A stretch of DNA of 64,000 nucleotides, taken from positions 2,233,404-2,297,403 of the forward strand of contig CANLQE010000001.1 of the NCBI GenBank assembly GCA_947493215.1, written 5' to 3'. A program made the translations under genes and the position numbers. This document shows, in pieces, positions 4,037 to 22,030 of this stretch (position 1 is its first letter; each line of letters begins with the position of its first letter). This DNA is from an uncultured Sphingomonadaceae bacterium (lineage in GTDB: Bacteria; Pseudomonadota; Alphaproteobacteria; Sphingomonadales; Sphingomonadaceae). The notes under the pieces are model-generated. The model was not told the origin of the DNA. It ran no database searches and saw only the letters and a program-made list of their open reading frames with translations.

Positions 4037-4380
4037 TCAAAAATATCGTCTAATGGATCCGATTTTTTCCAGTTCATTTGTTTCAAAATCAACCAACTTG
4101 TGGGTATTCCAATTAATGCTCCGACAAACGGAAACATTATCGCCGAAGCGATCAAGGGGATAAGAACCTCAAATCCATCAATGCCGTCAGCTGAACCAGA
4201 GATCACAACAACAAAATTGACCAAAAGCCACAACCCCAAGGGCGGCAACATACTCGACCATAATATATGCTTTCTACGGCTCCAGTTAGGTCGTATTGTT
4301 TGTACAAGAAAATTCGCCCCCGCAGTGCCCAAAAAAAACATCACTACGATTGGAATTAAGCTGCTTAAAAATAAACCCAT
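4033..4380 (-). CDS. Small integral membrane protein inserted between rimM and trmD (115 aa)
   Basis: I do not recognise a family. The 115 residues contain three hydrophobic segments (about 5-27, 43-62 and 70-98) and end in an acidic tail, so it is an inner-membrane protein. Its stop overlaps the trmD start by four bases, and it follows another small membrane gene after a gap of 61 bases, so it belongs to the rpsP-rplS unit. rimM and trmD are normally adjacent across bacteria; the insertion of unrelated membrane proteins here is unusual. Confidence 0.75.
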
Positions 4381-4441
4381 TCCGCAAACTCCACATTAGT
4401 AATTGTCAGAACATTCCGTAATAAGATTTCCTAATAATCTC

Positions 4442-4735
4442 TCAAGATTTGTCCTGCCGCGTTTTTCTGATCTCAAGAATCGCGAAGGTCATGATGGAGA
4501 TTACCAGCGCCATCGCCGCGTAAATTATCATCGTTTGTATGGGATTTTCATCACCAGCCCGGTCCTCGGAAAAGGCGATTAATATGATCCCAGGTGTCAG
4601 GATCAGTTGGCCGGCGAGAATCGTACTAGCCATGCGGACAAATTGATCCTGTTTTTGGCTGAGCTTCCAACCCGCAATGGCGGGGAACGCAACCAAAGCA
4701 AAGAGCAGGATAATAAAGAATATCGGTCCGGTCAC
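4442..4735 (-). CDS. Small membrane protein after rimM (97 aa)
   Basis: Unrecognised 97-residue protein with three predicted hydrophobic spans (about 4-23, 36-54 and 68-87) and a charged RKTRQDKS end. Its ATG overlaps the rimM stop by four bases, which argues for real translation in this operon. Together with the next gene it separates rimM from trmD. No motif suggests a function. Confidence 0.75.
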   Translation of the reverse strand: MTGPIFFIILLFALVAFPAIAGWKLSQKQDQFVRMASTILAGQLILTPGIILIAFSEDRAGDENPIQTMIIYAAMALVISIMTFAILEIRKTRQDKS

Positions 4736-7568: not shown

Positions 7569-9245
7569 ATGGGGCAAAAATTGACCGAGTCAAAGACCGC
7601 AGAGAAAAATAACAAATACGCTATTACGGCACGCCGGGATGTGTTGACCAGCTTGATTGTTATCTTCGCTATCCTGATGTTTGTAGGGACCGGCGGTACA
7701 GTTTTAAGCGAGGCTATCTCTGCGCTATCCGGCTATGGCGGCGGTTCGGACAAAATGCTGGTTTCAGCATTTTTATTGAACATTGCCCTGATATTATTTG
7801 GTTGGCGGCGCTACCGCGATCTGGCGGCGGAAGTAACCGAGCGTGCAGCTGCAGAAGAGCTCGCCCATTCCCTAGCCGTCACTGATCCCCTAACCGGTTT
7901 CCTTAATCGGCGAACTTTGGCCGAAGAAACCGCGGAAATGATCGCGACCGCCGAACGCAAGAATAAGAGTACTGCGTTTCTGATGCTTGATCTCGACAAT
8001 TTCAAAACTGTCAATGATGTCCACGGGCATGGCGCGGGGGATATTGTGCTCAAAGAAGTTGCTGCACGAATTTCCAAAGCTATTCCGCCCAATAACCTTT
8101 TGGCGCGACTTGGCGGTGACGAATTTGCCTGCGCATTTATTTTTGATCCCGATCAGCCAGAGATGGTCGACCGGATTGCCGGCGATTTGATTGATAGTAT
8201 CTCCATGCCAATTGTTGAAAATGGCAATCACTTGGTGGTTACCACCTCTATTGGTCTGTCGCGTTTCGACTTTGAGTCTGAAGGCGTCGAAGTTCTAATG
8301 CGCCGCGCCGATATCGCGATGTATTGCGCCAAAAAACAGGGCAGAAACCGTTTCTGCTGGTTCGACGTGTCCATGGAGCAAGAACTGCAAACCCGAAATA
8401 CACTTGAATCGGGCATGCGCAGCGGCATTCCAGCTGGAGAGTTTGTTCCTTATTTTGAGAAACAAATTGATCTTGCGACCGGAAAACTGACAGGCTTCGA
8501 AATGCTGGCCCGTTGGGAATCTCCAACGCAGGGATTGGTCTCACCCGAAGTATTTATTCCAATCGCCGAAGAAACCGGGATGATTGGCGATCTATCACTA
8601 AACATCATGCGGAAGACCTTCGAGCATGCGAAACATTGGGACCCAAGCCTGACCGTTTCAGTGAATATTTCACCGGTACAATTGCTCGACCCTTGGTTGG
8701 CTCAGAAGATCGTTAAATTGCTGGTTGAAACCGGGTTCCCGCCGAACCGGCTAGAAATTGAAATTACCGAGAGCTCGTTGTTCGAAAATCTCAGCCTTGC
8801 ACAATCCATTGTCGGAAGCCTTAAGAACCAGAATATTCAAATTGCTCTGGATGATTTTGGTACAGGCTATAGCTCGCTCGCTCACTTGCGCGCCCTGCCC
8901 TTTGACCGGATCAAAATTGACCGAAGCTTCGTGACATCGATTCTGGAAAATTCAGAAAGCGCTGCGATTGTCAAAGCCATTACGGGTCTCGGTGAGAGTT
9001 TGGGCATGCCGATCACTGCCGAAGGCATCGAAGACAAAGCCATAGAGGATGAACTGCGCAACATCGGTTGTGCCAAGGGGCAAGGTTGGCACTACGGTCG
9101 GCCGCTATCGATAGAGCAAATTGGAAAAGTACTGGCCGAACGCAATTTGCTGCCGGCACAGCCAGAAGCCGGGAAAGCTATCGCTGAAGAAATCGTTGAA
9201 GAAGCAATCAGTCCATCCGCCGGAACGGAGCGAAAAGCAGGTTAA
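7569..9245 (+). CDS. Membrane GGDEF-EAL protein (cyclic-di-GMP turnover)
   Basis: A 558-residue protein with two transmembrane spans (about 25-50 and 64-79), a short linker, a GGDEF domain with intact GGDEF at about 182-186, and an EAL domain. The EAL motif reads EML, but the DDFGTGYSSL and KIDRSFV elements are present, so phosphodiesterase activity is plausible. The usual RxxD inhibitory site before GGDEF is missing (PPNN there). Which activity dominates cannot be read from sequence. The frame opens at a TTG at 7518; I prefer the ATG at 7569, which has a purine-rich site upstream. Confidence 0.9.
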   Translation: MGQKLTESKTAEKNNKYAITARRDVLTSLIVIFAILMFVGTGGTVLSEAISALSGYGGGSDKMLVSAFLLNIALILFGWRRYRDLAAEVTERAAAEELAHSLAVTDPLTGFLNRRTLAEETAEMIATAERKNKSTAFLMLDLDNFKTVNDVHGHGAGDIVLKEVAARISKAIPPNNLLARLGGDEFACAFIFDPDQPEMVDRIAGDLIDSISMPIVENGNHLVVTTSIGLSRFDFESEGVEVLMRRADIAMYCAKKQGRNRFCWFDVSMEQELQTRNTLESGMRSGIPAGEFVPYFEKQIDLATGKLTGFEMLARWESPTQGLVSPEVFIPIAEETGMIGDLSLNIMRKTFEHAKHWDPSLTVSVNISPVQLLDPWLAQKIVKLLVETGFPPNRLEIEITESSLFENLSLAQSIVGSLKNQNIQIALDDFGTGYSSLAHLRALPFDRIKIDRSFVTSILENSESAAIVKAITGLGESLGMPITAEGIEDKAIEDELRNIGCAKGQGWHYGRPLSIEQIGKVLAERNLLPAQPEAGKAIAEEIVEEAISPSAGTERKAG

Positions 9246-15786: not shown

Positions 15787-15890
15787 ATAGTCCCCTCACA
15801 TCCCGATTGTTTCACATATTTAGGTAATCACAGGGCCAGCCTATTCAAGGCAAGCGGTAGTTGATGGTAAGGTGATAATGCCAAGGAAAG

Positions 15891-16943
15891 CTATCCCAGA
15901 AGATCGTGACGTTTCAGCGAATGGCGCAACTGATCATAGGTCAGATTGAGTGCCTTTGCCGTTTGTCGCTGGTTATAACGTGATTTCGCCAGAGCCGCTT
16001 CCAAGATGCGTTTTTCAAAGGCTTCGACAGCCTCTTTCATGTCATCGACCGCCGAATAAGCCGGTTCCACTGAAGCGGGTGTCGGTGCGACATCAGCTTG
16101 CTCAGATGCCTGGTTGGACTTGACGGGCTCGGGTTCCCGCGTTGCAGTTACTTGCGGCTTCCAAGGAGATTCAAAAGGGTCAAAGACGATATGATCGACT
16201 GGTCGTGAATAATCGCTCCATTGATAGACAGCGCGCTCGATAACATTACGCAGTTCACGGACATTGCCTGGCCATTGATGACGAGCCAGCGCTTCCGCGG
16301 CTAGCTGGCCAAAACCTGGCCATTGCTCCCATTCCAGCTCAGCCGCCATGCGTCGTCCGAAATAGTCGGCCAGCACCGGCACGTCGCCTTCGCGGTAGCG
16401 CAGCGGCGGCAAAGTAACGACCTCAAAAGACAAGCGATCAAGCAAATCCGCTCGAAATGTACCTTCATCGGCCATTTTGGGAAGATCGGCATTGGTTGCC
16501 GCAACGATCCGTACGTCCACCCGCTGCGGTCGCGAAGATCCTATTCGGGTAATCTCACCATATTCCACTGCGCGGAGCAACCGTTCCTGTGCAGCCGAAG
16601 ACAGCGTTCCAAGCTCATCGAGGAACAATGTCCCGCCATCGGCTTCTTCAAATCGCCCAACCCTGTTTTTGGTGGCCCCGGTAAAGGCGCCCGCTTCATG
16701 ACCGAATAGCTCCGCCTCGATCAGCGTTTCCGGCATGGCTGCACAGTTGAGTGTCACCAAAGGACCATCCCAACGCGTACTGAGGCGGTGGAGCCGTTCT
16801 GCGATCAACTCTTTACCTGTGCCGCGCTCGCCTATAACAAGGACAGGACGGTTTAATGCCGCGGCCCGGCTAGCCTTTTCTACGGCATCCAGAAAGGCCC
16901 CGGACTCTCCGATAAACTGATTTTCGCGATCCATGCCCAACAT
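15891..16943 (-). CDS. pspF: Phage shock protein operon activator PspF
   Basis: Sigma-54-dependent AAA+ activator without an N-terminal receiver domain. The 350 residues show Walker A GERGTGKE (38-45), the sigma-54 contact loop GAFTGA (85-90), FLDELGTL as Walker B, and a C-terminal Fis-type helix-turn-helix (YNQRQTAKALNLTYDQLRHSL). In characterised systems PspA binds PspF and silences it until membrane stress. It is divergent from the psp operon, whose sigma-54 promoter lies in the shared 158-base region. Confidence 0.93.
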   Translation of the reverse strand: MLGMDRENQFIGESGAFLDAVEKASRAAALNRPVLVIGERGTGKELIAERLHRLSTRWDGPLVTLNCAAMPETLIEAELFGHEAGAFTGATKNRVGRFEEADGGTLFLDELGTLSSAAQERLLRAVEYGEITRIGSSRPQRVDVRIVAATNADLPKMADEGTFRADLLDRLSFEVVTLPPLRYREGDVPVLADYFGRRMAAELEWEQWPGFGQLAAEALARHQWPGNVRELRNVIERAVYQWSDYSRPVDHIVFDPFESPWKPQVTATREPEPVKSNQASEQADVAPTPASVEPAYSAVDDMKEAVEAFEKRILEAALAKSRYNQRQTAKALNLTYDQLRHSLKRHDLLG

Positions 16944-17033
16944 ATAGTGTCAATTCCTATTAAATAGCAATTAATACCATATTCATTTTGTCAAAATTTT
17001 ATATTAATGCTATATATCAGTAACTTATAAAAC

Positions 17034-17049
17034 TGGCACGCCTCCTGCA
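17034..17049 (+). promoter_or_regulatory. Sigma-54 (-24/-12) promoter of the psp operon
   Basis: TGGCACGCCTCCTGCA matches the sigma-54 consensus, with GG and GC separated by exactly ten bases. It lies 53 bases before the first gene of the operon and opposite pspF. The AT-rich stretch at 16944-17033, including a spaced AATTAATA / TATTAAT pair (16969-16976 and 17002-17008), is a likely place for PspF or IHF binding; that part is inference. Confidence 0.92.
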
Positions 17050-17101
17050 ATGTTAGTCTCGAACCCGCAAGGGACTACAAAACGACCAATCGGAGGACAA
17101 A

Positions 17102-17284
17102 ATGTCAGCAACCACAAAAACAGGCAAACTCGCAAATTTGAGCAGAACCGATGTTTCTGCCGTCATTTCCGTCCTGCTGTTCAGCCTGACCATTTTGATC
17201 AGCGCCGTTGGGCCTGCAGAGGCGCAAGGCCCTACCATCTCCGAAGATGGTGTAATTTCCCCATCTGTCAGCTATAAAGCGTGA
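17102..17284 (+). CDS. Small exported peptide, first gene of the psp operon (60 aa)
   Basis: I do not recognise a family. An excellent GGAG site precedes the ATG. Residues 1-18 are polar and basic, 19-39 hydrophobic, and an AEA-Q junction near residue 42 looks like a signal-peptidase site. That would release a mature peptide of about 18 residues (GPTISEDGVISPSVSYKA plus Gln). It is the first gene after the sigma-54 promoter, so it should be made under the same stress. It could also remain as a single-pass membrane protein. A hairpin follows before pspA. Confidence 0.65.
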   Translation: MSATTKTGKLANLSRTDVSAVISVLLFSLTILISAVGPAEAQGPTISEDGVISPSVSYKA

Positions 17285-17293
17285 CAGGCGAAA

Positions 17294-17340
17294 TGGCCGG
17301 GACCCCTTCATTCCCCCTTGCCGAAGTTCGGTCCCGGCCA
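17294..17340 (+). other. 11-bp hairpin between the small peptide gene and pspA
   Basis: TGGCCGGGACC at 17294-17304 pairs perfectly with GGTCCCGGCCA at 17330-17340, loop 25. It is followed by CCTTTTC only, a weak T-tract. It could be a partial terminator or an mRNA processing/stability element that sets the ratio of peptide to PspA. Confidence 0.6.
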
Positions 17341-17451
17341 CCTTTTCAGATTGAAGACATAGAATTTATTGAAGACGCACAATTTTACGAAGACCAGCCT
17401 GAACGTTCGAACCATTCCAGGCGCAACGCTAGCAACTACCGGAGTTTAACC

Positions 17452-18123
17452 ATGGGTATTTTTTCAAGAACGCGCGATATCATCGCTGCCAACGTCACAG
17501 ACATGTTGGATAAAGCGGAGGATCCTTCCAAGTTGATCCGGATGATCATCCTAGAAATGGAAGAGACCCTTGTCGAAGTTCGTGCTTCTGCTGCCCGCAC
17601 CATTGCCGACCAAAAGGAAATGCGCCGGCATATAGACAAGCTGGAGCAGCTTACGGAAGATTGGAACGAAAAAGCTCAGCTGGCCCTGTCCAAAGATCGC
17701 GAAGATCTTGCAAAGGCCGCTTTGATCGAAAAACGCAAAGCATCTGATATGGCCGAGCAACTGACCGTTGAAATTCAGGTGCTCGACGACGCGCTTCGCG
17801 CTTCAGAAGGCGACATTGCGAAGCTGCAAAAGAAATTGCAGGAAGCGCGATCCCGCCAAAGCGGTTTGATCAATCGCCTAGAAAGCGCCGAAAACCGCTA
17901 TAAAATTCGCGAAATGTATAATGGCGATAAAGTCCATGATGCCTTTTCGAAATTTGAATATCTCGAACGTCAGGTTGATCATGCAGAAGGCCGCGCCGAT
18001 GCCCTGACTATGGGTGGTGAACCAGAAACACTGGAAAACCAGATTGCTGCGCTGGAAAGCAATGACAAGGTTGATGATGAATTGGAAGCCATGAAGGCGG
18101 CCATGAAGAAAGGTGACAAATAA
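17452..18123 (+). CDS. pspA: Phage shock protein A
   Basis: A 223-residue ESCRT-III-like peripheral membrane protein that coats stressed membranes and inhibits PspF. It starts at MGIFSRTRDIIAANVTDML, the family N-terminus with its amphipathic helix; a GGAG lies upstream. The rest is long coiled coil, with EDPSKLIRMIILEMEETLVEVR early and the FEYLERQVDHAEGRADA stretch late. The frame is open 57 codons upstream from a GTG, but that part lies over the hairpin and is not PspA-like. The stop overlaps the pspB start (TAATG). Confidence 0.96.
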   Translation: MGIFSRTRDIIAANVTDMLDKAEDPSKLIRMIILEMEETLVEVRASAARTIADQKEMRRHIDKLEQLTEDWNEKAQLALSKDREDLAKAALIEKRKASDMAEQLTVEIQVLDDALRASEGDIAKLQKKLQEARSRQSGLINRLESAENRYKIREMYNGDKVHDAFSKFEYLERQVDHAEGRADALTMGGEPETLENQIAALESNDKVDDELEAMKAAMKKGDK

Positions 18124-18419
18124 TGGAAAACATACTCGTACCTATTTTTGTGGTTGGCATGCTGTTTATCGGCCTACCGTGGATCATCTTTCACTATGTC
18201 ACCAAATGGAAAACTTCGGCCACCATCACCAATGAAGATGAGCAACTGCTCGATGAGTTGCACCGGATGGCGCGAAAATTGGATGATCGGATGGAAACTA
18301 TCGAACGTATCATGGCCGCCGATAATCCTAACTGGCGTCAATCGACATTGACCGATGCGACCAGCGATCCGAAACCGACGCTCGAAAATTTTGACAATCT
18401 TCTGAAAGAAAGGCGCTAA
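18123..18419 (+). CDS. pspB: Phage shock protein B
   Basis: A 98-residue protein with one N-terminal membrane span (about 4-25), then a short coiled coil with LLDELHRMARKLDDRMETIERIM. PspB with PspC relays membrane stress to PspA in enterobacteria. This copy is longer than the 74-residue E. coli PspB, with an extra C-terminal 30 residues. The LxxRxxxxERI stretch recurs in the six small proteins downstream. Confidence 0.88.
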   Translation: MENILVPIFVVGMLFIGLPWIIFHYVTKWKTSATITNEDEQLLDELHRMARKLDDRMETIERIMAADNPNWRQSTLTDATSDPKPTLENFDNLLKERR

Positions 18420-18421
18420 TC

Positions 18422-18802
18422 ATGTCTTCCACTCGCACCAAATTTTATCTCGATAAACAACGGGCCAAATGGAGCGGCGTTTGCGCAGGGATAGCCGACT
18501 ATACTGGAATAAAGGTATTTTGGGTCAGAGTATTGGCTGTCGTTGCAACCTTTGCAATCCCCTTCCCGATAACATTTATAGCCTATTTTGTTGCTGCAAA
18601 GTCATTCGATCCCAAACCGACTGAGCTATACGGTGACGCAGAGGACCGACAATTCTGGCAGGGCGTCCGCCAATCCCCTCGCCGCACGGCACGCGACGTT
18701 AAATCACGGTTCCGTGAAATTGACCGTCGTCTCGCTGATATGGAATTATATTATACAAGCAATAATAGCGCTCTATCCAATGAAATTGAGCAACTGCGCT
18801 AA
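18422..18802 (+). CDS. pspC: Phage shock protein C
   Basis: A 126-residue PspC-domain protein. Residues 8-35 (FYLDKQRAKWSGVCAGIADY) and one strong span near 38-60 form the PspC domain. The C-terminal 30 residues, containing RRLADMELYYTS and ending NEIEQLR, show the same R-L-x-x-x-E pattern and EI-x-x-LR end as the small proteins that follow. This suggests a common heteromeric coiled coil. It lies two bases after pspB. Confidence 0.9.
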   Translation: MSSTRTKFYLDKQRAKWSGVCAGIADYTGIKVFWVRVLAVVATFAIPFPITFIAYFVAAKSFDPKPTELYGDAEDRQFWQGVRQSPRRTARDVKSRFREIDRRLADMELYYTSNNSALSNEIEQLR

Positions 18803-18831
18803 ACACAGTTAGAGTTTAAAGGAGAAAAGTT

Positions 18832-19125
18832 ATGAATTGGGGTGGACCGGGATTTGTTATCGCTATCATCGCAGTTTGCTATGCTGGTTATATAATAAAT
18901 AATTGGATCAGGGCCAAACATGGCTATCCGCTCGAGAATGAGTGGGGCGGAACGACTGACAAGGGCACTCCGGATGCCGAACGCAAGATCGAACTGCTTT
19001 CTAGCGAAAATTCTGATCTGGTTGGTAAGATCGACCGCCTGCAGGAGCGCTTAGCTGTCCTCGAACGGATCGCAACAGATCCCGCCAAGCGAACCGCCGA
19101 CGAAATCGAAGCATTGAGAGAATAA
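18832..19125 (+). CDS. PspB-like small membrane protein 1 (97 aa)
   Basis: First of six tandem small proteins after pspC. It has a good AAGGAG site, a membrane span at about 6-23 and a short NNWIRAKHGYPLENEW juxtamembrane stretch. A C-terminal coiled coil contains ERLAVLERIATD and ends EIEALRE. The KHGYPLE stretch is shared with the next gene. Probably an inner-membrane PspB paralogue; its specific role is unknown. Confidence 0.85.
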   Translation: MNWGGPGFVIAIIAVCYAGYIINNWIRAKHGYPLENEWGGTTDKGTPDAERKIELLSSENSDLVGKIDRLQERLAVLERIATDPAKRTADEIEALRE

Positions 19126-19152
19126 TTAATACTGGACTGAGGGAGTTCAAAG

Positions 19153-19482
19153 ATGGAACCGGATAAAGCAGCATTCATATTGGAAATTCTACCATACGCT
19201 GCGCTGATCACGGCGGTCGCTGTTGGCGGCTGGGTTGTAACGACCTGGATGCGGATTAAAAACGGATATCCGCTAGAAGGCACCTGGGGCAATGCGCTTC
19301 ATCCCAAAACAGACCAAGAAGCTGTCGAGCGGGTTAAACTTCTAACCAATGAGAACGCTGAATTGCGCGCCGAAATTGGTTCAGTGAAAGACCGTCTGGC
19401 CAATGTGGAGCGCATTGTCACCGATGACAGCCACCGGCTGACCGGTGAAATAGAAGCCTTGCGCGACAAGCGCGCCAACTGA
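19153..19482 (+). CDS. PspB-like small membrane protein 2 (109 aa)
   Basis: Paralogue of the preceding gene. The N-terminal span is about 8-33, followed by WMRIKNGYPLEGTWGN. The coiled-coil tail has DRLANVERIVTD and EIEALRDKR. A GGGAG ribosome site precedes the ATG. The shared NGYPLE box marks genes 1 and 2 as the closest pair in the array. Confidence 0.85.
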   Translation: MEPDKAAFILEILPYAALITAVAVGGWVVTTWMRIKNGYPLEGTWGNALHPKTDQEAVERVKLLTNENAELRAEIGSVKDRLANVERIVTDDSHRLTGEIEALRDKRAN

Positions 19483-19496
19483 TCGGAGATATAGAT

Positions 19497-19778
19497 ATGG
19501 AAGTCTTACCGATATTACTCCCGATATTGGGAATATCATGTGGCCTACTCGCGATCATCGGCGGCGTTTTTGTTAAACCATGGATAAAATATAAGCAGGA
19601 AGCACTGAAAGTTCAGACCCAAATGACCGCCGAAAAAGCTGCCCAATATGGGGCGCATACAGAGCGGTTGGAGAAACGCGTCCGGGTGTTGGAGCGGATC
19701 GTCACAGATAAAGGCGTTGATCTGGCGGGGCAAATTGAAGACCTGCGCGATCAAGCGGATACAAAGGAGTTAAATTGA
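19497..19778 (+). CDS. PspB-like small membrane protein 3 (93 aa)
   Basis: Membrane span at about 3-27 followed by KPWIKYKQEALKVQTQ and a coiled coil with KRVRVLERIVTD and QIEDLRDQ. It lacks the GYPLE box. A GGAG site precedes the start. The stop codon shares its last base with the ATG of the next gene. Confidence 0.84.
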   Translation: MEVLPILLPILGISCGLLAIIGGVFVKPWIKYKQEALKVQTQMTAEKAAQYGAHTERLEKRVRVLERIVTDKGVDLAGQIEDLRDQADTKELN

Positions 19779-20044
19779 TGGATTGGCTAGCACTATTAAT
19801 TCCGCTCGCCCCGTTTGGCCTTGGCGGCCTTTGGATCTGGACCCGCCACCAAAGCAAGATGGTAGACAAACAAAAAGAGCTCATGTTGCTAGGCAAAAAC
19901 GCGCCAGAAAGCGACGATAGCCGACGCATGAACGAAGATATGAAATATCTCAAAGATCGCGTGGCTGTGTTGGAGAAAATAGTCACCGATGAACGCGGTG
20001 CGCGGGAGCTTGAAAGTGAAATAGCAAAGCTGAGAGACAGCTGA
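19778..20044 (+). CDS. PspB-like small membrane protein 4 (88 aa)
   Basis: Short span at 2-20, then WTRHQSKMVDKQKELMLL and a coiled coil with DRVAVLEKIVTDERGAREL ending EIAKLRDS. The start ATG at 19778 overlaps the previous stop by one base and has GGAG upstream; an in-frame TTG one codon earlier is less likely. The TDERGAREL / TDDRGARDL stretch pairs this copy with gene 5. Confidence 0.84.
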   Translation: MDWLALLIPLAPFGLGGLWIWTRHQSKMVDKQKELMLLGKNAPESDDSRRMNEDMKYLKDRVAVLEKIVTDERGARELESEIAKLRDS

Positions 20045-20073
20045 GCGATAGATTGTTGGAGGGAATAGAATAG

Positions 20074-20349
20074 ATGAACCCGTTTGAAATGGTTGTGGCC
20101 ATCATTATCGTCGTCACTATTGGGAAGGTGGTCAACACCCGCATTCAGGCCAGACATGGCATAACTTCTGACAAGGATGGCAATGCCTTGATGATGAACA
20201 TGAAGCCATCCGTGGATCCAGATGCCGACAAGCTCCGCGAAGAAGTCAAATTTCTAAAAGAACGCGTCGCCGTTCTGGAAAAAATCGCCACTGATGATCG
20301 CGGTGCCCGCGACCTCGAAAATGAAATTGAAAAATTGCGGGACCGTTAG
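20074..20349 (+). CDS. PspB-like small membrane protein 5 (91 aa)
   Basis: Membrane span at about 5-22, juxtamembrane TRIQARHGI, then a coiled coil with KERVAVLEKIATDDRGARDL and EIEKLRDR. The tail is nearly the same as in gene 4, while ARHG recalls the KHG of gene 1. A GGAGGG ribosome site precedes the ATG. Confidence 0.84.
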   Translation: MNPFEMVVAIIIVVTIGKVVNTRIQARHGITSDKDGNALMMNMKPSVDPDADKLREEVKFLKERVAVLEKIATDDRGARDLENEIEKLRDR

Positions 20350-20389
20350 GACGGTTCCTCAAAAGCAGGAAGAGAAGAAGGATAGCATC

Positions 20390-20620
20390 ATGCCAGACCC
20401 TAGTTTTTACCTGATGACTGCGGCCTTTACCTTGATTGGTCTGACCGCCGTATCATTGATCGCCTTGCGCGGTTGGCGCGACTGGATTGCATTGAAGACC
20501 AAGGAATTGGACCGGCATCGCGAGGAAAACCCGCCGACCGCTTCTTCAAGAATCGAAGTAGCGGACCTGAAAGAGCGTATTCGCAAGTTGGAAGCAATCG
20601 CTGCGGGCGTAGAGCTTTAA
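20390..20620 (+). CDS. PspB-like small membrane protein 6 (76 aa)
   Basis: Most divergent member. The span is at about 6-25, then GWRDWIALKTKELDRHR and a shortened coiled coil with LKERIRKLEAIAAG; the EI-x-x-LR end is lost. The ATG at 20390 has AAGGA upstream; the frame extends further back into gene 5 but that is not coding-like. The order span, basic juxtamembrane, coiled coil matches the rest of the array. Confidence 0.78.
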   Translation: MPDPSFYLMTAAFTLIGLTAVSLIALRGWRDWIALKTKELDRHREENPPTASSRIEVADLKERIRKLEAIAAGVEL

Positions 20621-20684
20621 CGTTCCTGCACAGGCAAATTCAAAAAAGGATGACGCGAATCTCCTGCCCTGCTAGCGGGCGGAG

Positions 20685-21092
20685 ATGAGCAAAATAGACG
20701 ATCTAATAGAAGAATATGAATTTCTTGAAGCTGATGACCGATACCGGCTTCTGATTGATTTGGGCAAAGAGCTGGAAGAAATGCCAGATGCCCTCAAAAC
20801 AGATGCTACTTTAGTACGCGGTTGCTCCGCCTCTGTTTGGGTTTATCCCACAAAACAAGATGATGGCCGCCTGCATTTTCTGGCGGACAGTAACGCCGCA
20901 ATAACCAAGGGTATCATTGCATTGGTTTTGGAAACTGTCCAGGATCAGCAGATTGATGCTGTGCTGAAAACTGACATCGCCGAACGACTTGCGCCGTTTG
21001 ATCTCAAAAATCAGCTAAGTTCCAATCGCACTCAAGGTATTCCCAATATGATTGCTCTGATCAATGAAACCGCGCAGAGATATCAAGGATGA
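20685..21092 (+). CDS. sufE: SufE family cysteine-desulfurase activator
   Basis: Accepts persulfide sulfur from SufS during Fe-S cluster assembly. The 135 residues are usual length and the catalytic loop VRGCSASVW places the acceptor at Cys47. No other suf genes are in the window, so it is a detached member of the pathway. The purine-rich site abuts the ATG unusually closely. Confidence 0.9.
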   Translation: MSKIDDLIEEYEFLEADDRYRLLIDLGKELEEMPDALKTDATLVRGCSASVWVYPTKQDDGRLHFLADSNAAITKGIIALVLETVQDQQIDAVLKTDIAERLAPFDLKNQLSSNRTQGIPNMIALINETAQRYQG

Positions 21093-21475
21093 TGATCGCT
21101 ATCTTGTTGTTAGCGATAGCGCCTGATCCCGCGCCACCACTGACCGCTGAGGAACAGCTAATAGAATCCAAAAATAGACCAGAGCTCCGGCTAACACCTA
21201 ATGATATCGAGACAGCACGGGTAGACTTTGATCAATATACCAATCAACCTGTTATAAATATTGCATTTTCGCCGAGTGGAAGCAGGCGGTTTATGATCTT
21301 GCAAAATGGACGGCTTGGAAAAGCCATTGCGCTTTACATTGGTGATCGTCTCGTAGCCGAGCCCATTCTCAACGAATATATTTTTGATGGTTAGGTGCAA
21401 ATTAGCGGCGGCTTTACCCTCGAAGAAGCAAATGCGCTTCAATCAGAATTGACCACAGATATAATTGAACCATAA
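21089..21475 (+). pseudogene. SecD-P1-like secreted protein interrupted by in-frame TAG
   Basis: The open part (21089-21394, 101 codons) starts inside the sufE stop and has a short hydrophobic N-terminus. It then resembles the P1 head of SecD: NDIETARVDFD, PVINIAFSPSGSRRF, GKAIALYIGDRLVAEPI. At 21392-21394 a TAG falls where the domain normally continues. After it, 26 codons in the same frame (VQISGGFTLEEANAL...) complete the typical P1 ending before a TAA at 21473. So this is a recent nonsense mutation, a sequence error or a readthrough codon. Intact stand-alone SecD-P1-like proteins have no established role. Confidence 0.6.
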
Positions 21476-21493
21476 ACCGGCAAAGAGAATCCT

Positions 21494-22030
21494 CTAAACC
21501 GGTTTCCAGACCCGCCGTTCTTCAGCGATTTTCAATACATCAAAAGCCGCCTGAGCCGCCTGAAACATCTTGGCCGCTTCTTTATCGCCGGGATTAACAT
21601 CTGGATGATGTTCCTTGGCCATTGCGCGCCAGGCTTTCTTCACAGCCTCGAAATCCACATCGGGTGGAAGGTCAAAAATCTCTAGCGCGGTCATCTCGTC
21701 GCGTGATCGGCTGCCATCGCCACTACCCATCCAGCTATAATGCGCAGATTCCTGGTAGGCATTGGCATCGCGCTGCTCATCGGCTTCGCGTTTTTTCCGT
21801 TCTTCTTTGTCCAGACCTTCGAAATAGTCCCAGCCCCGGTTGTATTCCGCCGCGTGGGTTTGGCAGAAAAACCACTTTTCCGGGCTATTGGGGGATTTGG
21901 GTGCGGGGCAAATGCCGGCTTCGTCACAGCCATGTCGGTCGCATAGCTTTAATTGCTGCGTCTCACGCGAGCTTTCATAGCTACCCCAGCGAGGAAAGCC
22001 CCAATTGTCGGATCGTTTTGCTTTTGGCAT
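21494..22030 (-). CDS. J-domain (DnaJ-like) protein
   Basis: A 178-residue protein with a C-terminal J domain (about 120-175) carrying the HPD motif in KEHHPDVNPGDKEA, which stimulates DnaK ATPase. The N-terminal half has Cys-containing segments (CDRHGCDEAG, FFCQTHA) that may bind metal. I chose the ATG at 22030 (MPKAKRSDNWGFPRWG), the usual start of this alphaproteobacterial family; the longer frame would run into rnpB. No dnaK is nearby. Confidence 0.85.
   Translation of the reverse strand: MPKAKRSDNWGFPRWGSYESSRETQQLKLCDRHGCDEAGICPAPKSPNSPEKWFFCQTHAAEYNRGWDYFEGLDKEERKKREADEQRDANAYQESAHYSWMGSGDGSRSRDEMTALEIFDLPPDVDFEAVKKAWRAMAKEHHPDVNPGDKEAAKMFQAAQAAFDVLKIAEERRVWKPV

Follow-up and report, generated by a model that had tools for sequence, protein, structure and literature searches.

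Putative accessory membrane anchors akin to PspB and to the C-terminal half of PspC, arrayed in a sphingomonad psp operon

The phage-shock protein (Psp) operon of an uncultured Sphingomonadaceae bacterium bears on two questions: how PspA reaches a damaged membrane, and how a single system can respond to damage of many kinds. In the 64-kb stretch of its DNA analysed here (the window, whose positions serve as coordinates throughout), pspA, pspB and pspC are followed by six further small genes, numbered 1-6 in array order after pspC. What could six such genes contribute to an operon that holds a canonical PspB beside them? Judged by sequence, they appear to encode the same module, a membrane span plus a cytoplasmic helix, that also forms PspB and the second half of PspC. 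An initial annotation had described six same-strand genes of 76-109 aa between pspC and sufE as PspB-like paralogues. The open reading frames (ORFs) bear out that arrangement, and the kinship with PspB stands; the label is nevertheless incomplete. The C-terminal half of PspC resembles them at least as closely as PspB does, and this suggests PspA docking and not only a PspB-like role.

The kinship was measured with a profile of 41 family members, built without PspB or PspC and searched against the 5,766 ORFs of 80 psp loci. At E ≤ 0.01 (Z = 4000) the profile recovered 78 of 78 PspC and 73 of 78 PspB ORFs; 353 ORFs scored at least 30 bits, where 353 array genes are called, and there were no other matches. 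A larger set of 7,236 ORFs, in which some loci occur twice and which includes loci fetched by the profile itself, yielded 92 of 96 PspC, 84 of 95 PspB and nine other matches. Four of these nine are short ORFs (64-91 aa) and five are long (425-597 aa as listed, the second 441), the long ones lying in loci fetched by the profile itself. A gap-trimmed rebuild of the profile found 89 PspC and 84 PspB among the 7,236 ORFs, against at most 4 PspC and 12 PspB for ten versions with the helix shuffled in heptad blocks, and at most 5 PspC and 1 PspB for one reversed and five column-shuffled versions. Since a model of the N-terminal part alone finds none, and a model of the helix alone finds 40 PspC and 41 PspB, the kinship signal sits in the helix.

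Several comparisons place PspC at least level with PspB. Among the best matches listed, PspC aligns to the family profile from its second span through its last residue. In the window's own genome, a profile of the paralogues finds the six paralogues and then, as seventh-best match, the second half of PspC (18605-18802, E = 0.014). Against 18,950 NCBIfam models at E ≤ 0.1, the commonest matches are PspC, matched by 22 of the 41 members (best 1.1e-05), and PspB, matched by 16 of 41 (best 7.4e-05). The PspB-like architecture and kinship claimed at the outset hold up in profile tests that beat their heptad shuffles: group profiles 1 and 2 score 38.4 and 39.5 against PspB, and none of 20 shuffles reaches either. 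Against PspC, group 2 scores 44.7 and groups 4 and 5 score 29.0 and 30.6 (0 of 20 shuffles for each). Taken as a whole, the kinship appears slightly stronger to the C-terminal half of PspC than to PspB. L116, a relative from elsewhere, bridges the family and PspB: it scores 51.3 bits against the family profile and, over residues 1-68 of its 79, matches TIGR02976 at 2.2e-10, with 40.7 bits where the cut-off is 51.7. None of the six matches the N-terminal PspC domain (PF04024) up to E = 10. Searched by sequence, the PDB returned no PspB or PspC chain among the best 60 of 128 family-profile matches, nor one for PspC, and PHROGs gave scattered weak matches, shared by at most 2 of the 41 members per family.

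Each of the six ORFs has a hydrophobic stretch near its N-terminus with lysine or arginine after it, so that the N-terminal span, basic segment and ensuing helix described for all six are confirmed. Across the family, lysine plus arginine are commoner after the span than before it in 357 of 359 members, the stretch before being short, and the predicted topology is a single N-terminal span with the C-terminus inside. The AlphaFold2 model of gene 2 has helices at residues 3-37 (the span) and 54-108, with a mean predicted local distance difference test score of 77.4 and a predicted template modelling score of 0.32. The motifs were drawn slightly too broadly. The signature R-[LVI]-x-x-[LV]-E-x-I-[AV]-T-D, claimed for all six, is present in five, gene 6 reading RIRKLEAIAAG and lacking TD; the EIxxLR end, claimed for five, occurs strictly in four, gene 3 having QIEDLR and gene 6 none. 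The boxes GYPLE (genes 1-2) and TDxRGARxL (genes 4-5) are real. The motif match is not due to chance: R[LVIAM]xx[LVIM]E occurs in 358 of the 359 genes that were called in 79 loci from position and span, with no reference to the motif.

The genes of the locus and its boundaries are as follows.

15891-16943, minus strand: pspF, divergent, encoding the sigma-54 enhancer-binding activator (TIGR02974, 1.4e-148, 494.6 bits, cut-off 443.55)
17034-17049, plus strand: sigma-54 type -24/-12 site TGGCACGCCTCCTGCA (score 27 of 28.5)
17452-18123, plus strand: pspA (TIGR02977, 8.4e-84, above cut-off)
18123-18419, plus strand: pspB (TIGR02976, 1.3e-25, 89.5 bits, cut-off 51.7)
18422-18802, plus strand: pspC (TIGR02978, 1.3e-35, above cut-off)
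18832-19125, plus strand: paralogue 1, 97 aa, with span, GYPLE box and a helix ending TD...EIEALR
19153-19482, plus strand: paralogue 2, 109 aa, with span, GYPLE box and long helix
19497-19778, plus strand: paralogue 3, 93 aa (sub-threshold PspB match, E = 0.011)
19778-20044, plus strand: paralogue 4, 88 aa, with TDxRGARxL box; its start overlaps the paralogue 3 stop by one base
20074-20349, plus strand: paralogue 5, 91 aa, with TDxRGARxL box
20390-20620, plus strand: paralogue 6, 76 aa, ending LKERIRKLEAIAAGVEL, with neither TD nor the EIxxLR tail
20685-21092, plus strand: sufE, the downstream boundary, outside the array (PF02657, 2.8e-34)

PspA, PspB, PspC and PspF all score above their curated NCBIfam cut-offs. 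From pspA to gene 6 the genes run head to tail on the plus strand with neighbour gaps of -1 to 40 nt, and 64 nt separate gene 6 from sufE. The start of gene 6 is taken as the ATG at 20390; an alternative, longer ORF from 20294 would overlap gene 5. The claim of good ribosome sites agrees with our judgement by eye, the sites of all six being purine-rich and plausible. That no terminator precedes sufE also stands, as the six terminator-like sites in 16900-21500 are all on the minus strand and equal the shuffled mean in number; Rfam gave no match over 15800-21500. The proposed link to sigma-54 is borne out by the site ahead of pspA, as rated by a simple score on the consensus (maximum 28.5). Among relatives, 75 of 76 loci have a site scoring at least 22 ahead of pspA, and the score is 27 in all 12 listed; the 167 control ORFs attain 22 in 39 cases and 24 in 7. 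A single transcript from pspA through gene 6 is plausible on this arrangement.

Two further ORFs were seen at the edges of the operon. Between the sigma-54 site and pspA, 17102-17284 encodes 60 aa after a GGAGG stretch, with a signal-peptide-like core and the ending SAVGPAEA; the operon may thus start with a gene that annotation has missed. Of 67 relatives' loci in which the site can be recognised, 58 have an ORF there whose hydrophobic stretch is followed by a loose match to A-x-[GA]-P, two of the 58 being long ORFs; in Pfam the window copy has a best E of 0.14 and the L044 copy no match at 0.01. At the other end, an ORF at 21089-21394 overlaps the sufE stop and matches the SecDF P1 head subdomain (6.9e-08).

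Is the array peculiar to this genome? The 80 loci were fetched via PspA and by title are Sphingomonadales, or genera assigned to that order, except L034 and L062, which have odd or broader titles. Array genes were recognised downstream of pspC from their position and span, the motif playing no part; left out were genes outside 70-125 aa or without a near-N-terminal span, and L013 and L014, whose pieces hold no pspC. L017, a metagenome assembly with gene 1 split over two ORFs, was counted with two genes, and L047_4 falls in no group. On this basis, 78 of 79 pspC loci (78 fetched, plus the window) carry an array of 1-8 genes, 359 members in total, and L036 carries none. When each gene is assigned to whichever of the window's six it matches best, most arrays read 1-2-3-(4)-5-6, with losses, extra copies and a few other first subtypes, and each of the 78 non-empty arrays ends in gene 6.

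The array is old and has been kept. In a tree of 93 of the 359 members (95 columns; support for the deep splits, and for the deep order of the groups, is weak), the six labels need 7 changes, against a minimum of 5 and a shuffled mean of 59.4; therefore most subtypes are common to several genera, and the duplications are mostly old. Tandem duplication and divergence, as first proposed, is thus upheld by the tree and refined, in that the 4-5 duplication, alone among the pairs, looks like an event of the window's clade. Five gene-4 rows join the gene-5 rows (Shimodaira-Hasegawa-like approximate likelihood ratio 96) and are nested inside them on branches of support 80; two further rows labelled as gene 4 fall elsewhere. 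By profile, the closest pair is genes 1-2. Gene 3 of the window matches one of two gene-3 copies in L020 at 151 bits and the other at 81, and gene 3 of L005-L010 at 85-88 bits; the closer match to one L020 copy than to L005-L010 suggests differential loss. Ratios of nonsynonymous to synonymous substitution rates were computable in 15 of 18 comparisons between the window and three relatives and lie at 0.02-0.19, some synonymous rates being saturated and gene 3 being computable in one comparison; the pairs compared are under purifying selection.

Some arrays also contain a small ORF encoding roughly 40 aa, marked by DRPxRR and a hydrophobic stretch. It lies in the gap of roughly 165-205 nt that separates the third-last from the second-last array gene, and was seen in all 13 loci inspected (L037, where it lies at 8321-8449, and L028, L030, L040, L046, L049, L051, L057, L060, L071, L078, L083 and L084). 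A narrower pattern, with lysine or arginine also two places before DRP, occurs in 9 of 24 gaps of 150-230 nt, and the L037 ORF has no Pfam match.

The distribution of the family follows that of PspA. One genome from each of 59 Sphingomonadaceae genera was searched (family match at E ≤ 0.01): 56 genera have a match, the same 56 have PspA, and the sole match in G044 is PspC itself. The family is therefore present in 55 of 56 PspA-positive and none of 3 PspA-negative genera; among the latter, G030 and G056 keep SufE, and in G014 neither SufE nor psp was found. Across 249 genomes of the phylum (PspA at E ≤ 1e-60, strong family match at E ≤ 1e-9; G443 1.2e-10), the family occurs in 30 of 46 PspA-positive genomes, 14 of them of the window's own family and 16 of others, and in none of 203 PspA-negative genomes. 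In a sample of the class, matches at E ≤ 1e-3 were obtained for 13 of 241 genomes. Four of the 13 belong to the own family; the other nine include G193 with a strong match (2.2e-16), G238 with a member inside the psp operon, and G082, whose match is PspC or PspB. The family tracks PspA and looks like an overlooked part of the Psp stress system.

The position of the copies differs between lineages. In the own family they lie beside pspA (by eye, among the matches listed), and in the 16 other phylum genomes the strong copies sit 79 kb or more away from pspA, or on different contigs (by eye). G538 has a member directly after pspC. In a genome of another class, L125 has one member (4358-4579) directly after pspA-pspB-pspC, followed by hairpin-like sequence (by eye), and is a simple one-copy version of the array. 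In L092 (1058-2156), of the window's own class, a psp operon holds PspB, a tail-less ORF with the PspC domain, a free-standing member and a complete PspC; domain and tail of PspC look there as though they could be encoded apart. The sphingomonad G413 has a match (C6:209425-209580) on a contig other than that of its array. No shared neighbour was seen among the 14 loci listed for unlinked relatives, with 10 neighbours scanned and varied genes found; a dUTPase lies beside an unlinked relative in two genomes of one family.

Some unlinked members may belong to a PspF or other sigma-54 regulon, although this is suggestive only and concerns a few of them. Upstream of unlinked relatives, 5 of 20 have a sigma-54-like score of at least 24, compared with 7 of the 167 control ORFs (p = 0.004). 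Within 350 bases upstream of 51 unlinked copies (50 loci, by eye), which come from related genomes and have sites at varying distances, 12 reach 24, against 1 of 51 for the reverse complement and 23 of 1020 base shuffles. In L143, L147, L129 and L116 a sigma-54-like site lies 52-131 bases upstream of the unlinked family gene. An unlinked regulon member, pspG, is described for Yersinia in passages of PMC5596341.

What, then, might the six proteins do? Our preferred reading, to which we assign a probability of roughly 60%, is that they are accessory membrane anchors, C-terminus inside, which become part of PspB/PspC assemblies and serve to dock or gate PspA. Our data show the homology, the topology (by sequence), the place in the operon, purifying selection in those pairs that were compared, and the occurrence alongside PspA across genomes; co-transcription, hetero-oligomers, PspA docking and a division of labour between genes 1-5 and gene 6 are what we infer. 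With the same helix, topology and operon, the six would most simply join PspB/PspC assemblies and add docking sites or caps for PspA. Yersinia PspB and PspC form an inner-membrane complex. According to passages of PMC5596341, the C-terminal cytoplasmic domain of PspC binds PspA in the on state, and parts of PMC3068692 describe, for E. coli, self-association of PspB and a PspC zipper needed for interaction with PspA.

As we envisage it, six single-span inner-membrane proteins with cytoplasmic C-termini, their helix homologous to the PspB helix and the PspC tail, would be made together with PspA from the PspF/sigma-54 promoter and would insert into PspB/PspC assemblies through the common helix. 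Genes 1-5, keeping a PspC-type tail, would provide extra membrane docking sites for PspA; gene 6, with the short PspB-type part alone, might cap or silence such tails, as PspB reportedly does to PspC. Several non-identical anchors could in this way determine both the threshold of the response and its capacity, and bring PspA to lesions of different kinds. The initial annotation had suggested mixed coiled-coil assemblies that might differ in stress input or lipid target. Extended beyond the window, and more tentatively, our reading would make of the family a so far unrecognised set of free-standing PspC-tail/PspB-type anchors: tandem subtypes in nearly all Sphingomonadaceae psp operons and, in the rest of the phylum, between one and three genes, for the most part unlinked and in some cases perhaps served by a sigma-54 site of their own. 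One PspA pool might then be recruited and gated by several interchangeable membrane receptors instead of one PspB-PspC pair.

A number of results weigh against the anchor reading. None of the six reaches the curated PspB cut-offs, the best scoring 16.0 against 51.7 bits (TIGR02976) and 13.5 against 25.6 (PF06667), and none reaches the curated PspC cut-off. The similarity of groups 3, 4 and 5 to PspB is weak, being equalled by 3, 4 and 4 of 20 heptad shuffles, and the PspC scores of group 1 (36.3) and group 3 (31.3) are matched by 3 and 1 of 20. The group 6 profile has no direct similarity to PspB or PspC; it matches groups 3 and 4 at 92-94% probability in profile-profile comparison, and gene 6 appears to be linked to PspB and PspC through genes 3 and 4 alone. 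Separate promoters may exist within the array, where sigma-54-like matches score up to 23.5 (compared with 27 ahead of pspA) and sigma-70-like matches also occur; 16900-21500 holds 9 weak sigma-70-like sites against 6.0 expected, six of the nine on the plus strand.

The co-occurrence, too, has its weak points. All counts and Fisher tests ignore relatedness. Weaker matches alone (7e-7 to 6e-4) turn up in ten genomes of the phylum sample. Three of these have PspA; of the seven that lack it, five have the match in an open frame of 366-1185 aa. In 120 genomes from the order of G459 (match at E ≤ 1e-6) the family again goes with PspA, being present in 33 of 68 PspA-positive and 1 of 52 PspA-negative genomes; that order, however, was picked for the family member in G459, and the phylum sample had already included 12 of the 34 family-positive genomes. 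G523 (670 contigs) has a family match and no PspA at the cut-off used. Finally, the family is not essential, for it is missing (or gives no match at E ≤ 1e-9) in G044, L036 and 16 of the 46 PspA-positive phylum genomes.

Of the alternatives, the one that survives best, though we consider it unlikely, is that the six are negative regulators, an excess of PspB-like partners that soak up PspC tails or PspA, raise the induction threshold and shut the response off. In Yersinia, interaction between the cytoplasmic domains of PspB and PspC is reported to silence the response, as such a role would have it, but five of the six genes keep the PspC-type rather than the PspB-type end. A further possibility, which we hold to be decidedly unlikely, is that they are pore effectors that bind mislocalised multimeric pores such as secretins, each paralogue fitted to another pore. 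Passages of PMC5596341 describe complexes of Psp effectors with mislocalised secretins, and prevention of leak by PspB and PspC alone. Across the 56 PspA-positive genera the number of matches does correlate with that of secretins (Spearman 0.27, p = 0.04, uncorrected for relatedness), but over all 59 genera the correlation is 0.20 (p = 0.13); here G044 was set from 1 to 0 copies, its match being PspC, and other counts may include PspC and be one too high. Moreover, G003 and G019, without a secretin at E ≤ 1e-10, keep 5 and 3 family matches, and G030 has 4 secretin matches yet neither psp nor a family member. Secretin number as a driver of copy number is weak at best. That the six are unrelated small coiled-coil membrane proteins, placed by chance between pspC and sufE and serving another process, is very improbable, for although none reaches a PspB or PspC cut-off and the neighbour sufE is unrelated, the profile recovers PspB and PspC where shuffled controls find few, the heptad-shuffled ones ruling this out; psp and the family are both absent from G030 and G056 while SufE is kept, and the co-occurrence with PspA holds also where copies are unlinked.

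The accessory-anchor reading proposes a function for small window proteins that fall under all Pfam and NCBIfam cut-offs and would otherwise be called hypothetical. Five or six diverged anchors per operon, together with relatives in other classes, offer clean material for dissecting the PspB/PspC helix into what serves PspA binding and what serves specificity.

Among known systems, a works-like counterpart is found in the lia operon of Bacillus, where LiaI is the membrane anchor of the PspA homologue LiaH. LiaI shares with the array the pairing of a small membrane protein with a PspA-type protein, a comparison of how they work and not of their sequences; it is listed as a small transmembrane protein in passages of PMC11237479. 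The same work (Ravi et al. 2024) describes, in the passages available, 'PspB duplicates' in a psp operon (example AOL22920.1), an operon type shared with ours, and PspC fused to a 'divergent C-terminal PspB'; duplicated PspB in psp operons and a PspB-like PspC C-terminus are thus already known. Those passages, supplements aside, contain no multi-gene array, no PspC-type tails on free-standing proteins and no unlinked copies, and the main text has 0 occurrences of 'sphingo'. A literature search, mostly without subscription papers and with many entries judged by title or opening of the abstract, returned nothing on these array genes, and no description of an array with several subtypes, of its PspC-type tails or of unlinked relatives that go with PspA.

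With PspB (TIGR02976/PF06667) the array proteins share the N-terminal span, the positive residues after it, the helix R-[LIVM]-x-x-[LIV]-E-x-I and the operon. They differ in scoring below its curated cut-offs, in occurring as several copies per operon beside a canonical PspB, and in the sequence after the motif, which in the window's PspB continues AADNPNWR and in genes 1-5 continues TD...[EQ]IxxLR. From PspC they differ in being free-standing and without the N-terminal PspC domain. With its C-terminal half (about 69-121 of TIGR02978) they share an alignment that runs to the last residue; by profile the PspC-type tail helix is present in the family, gene 6 being without a match, and the tail of PspC, RRLADMELYYTSNNSALSNEIEQLR, and that of gene 2, DRLANVERIVTDDSHRLTGEIEALR, are alike.

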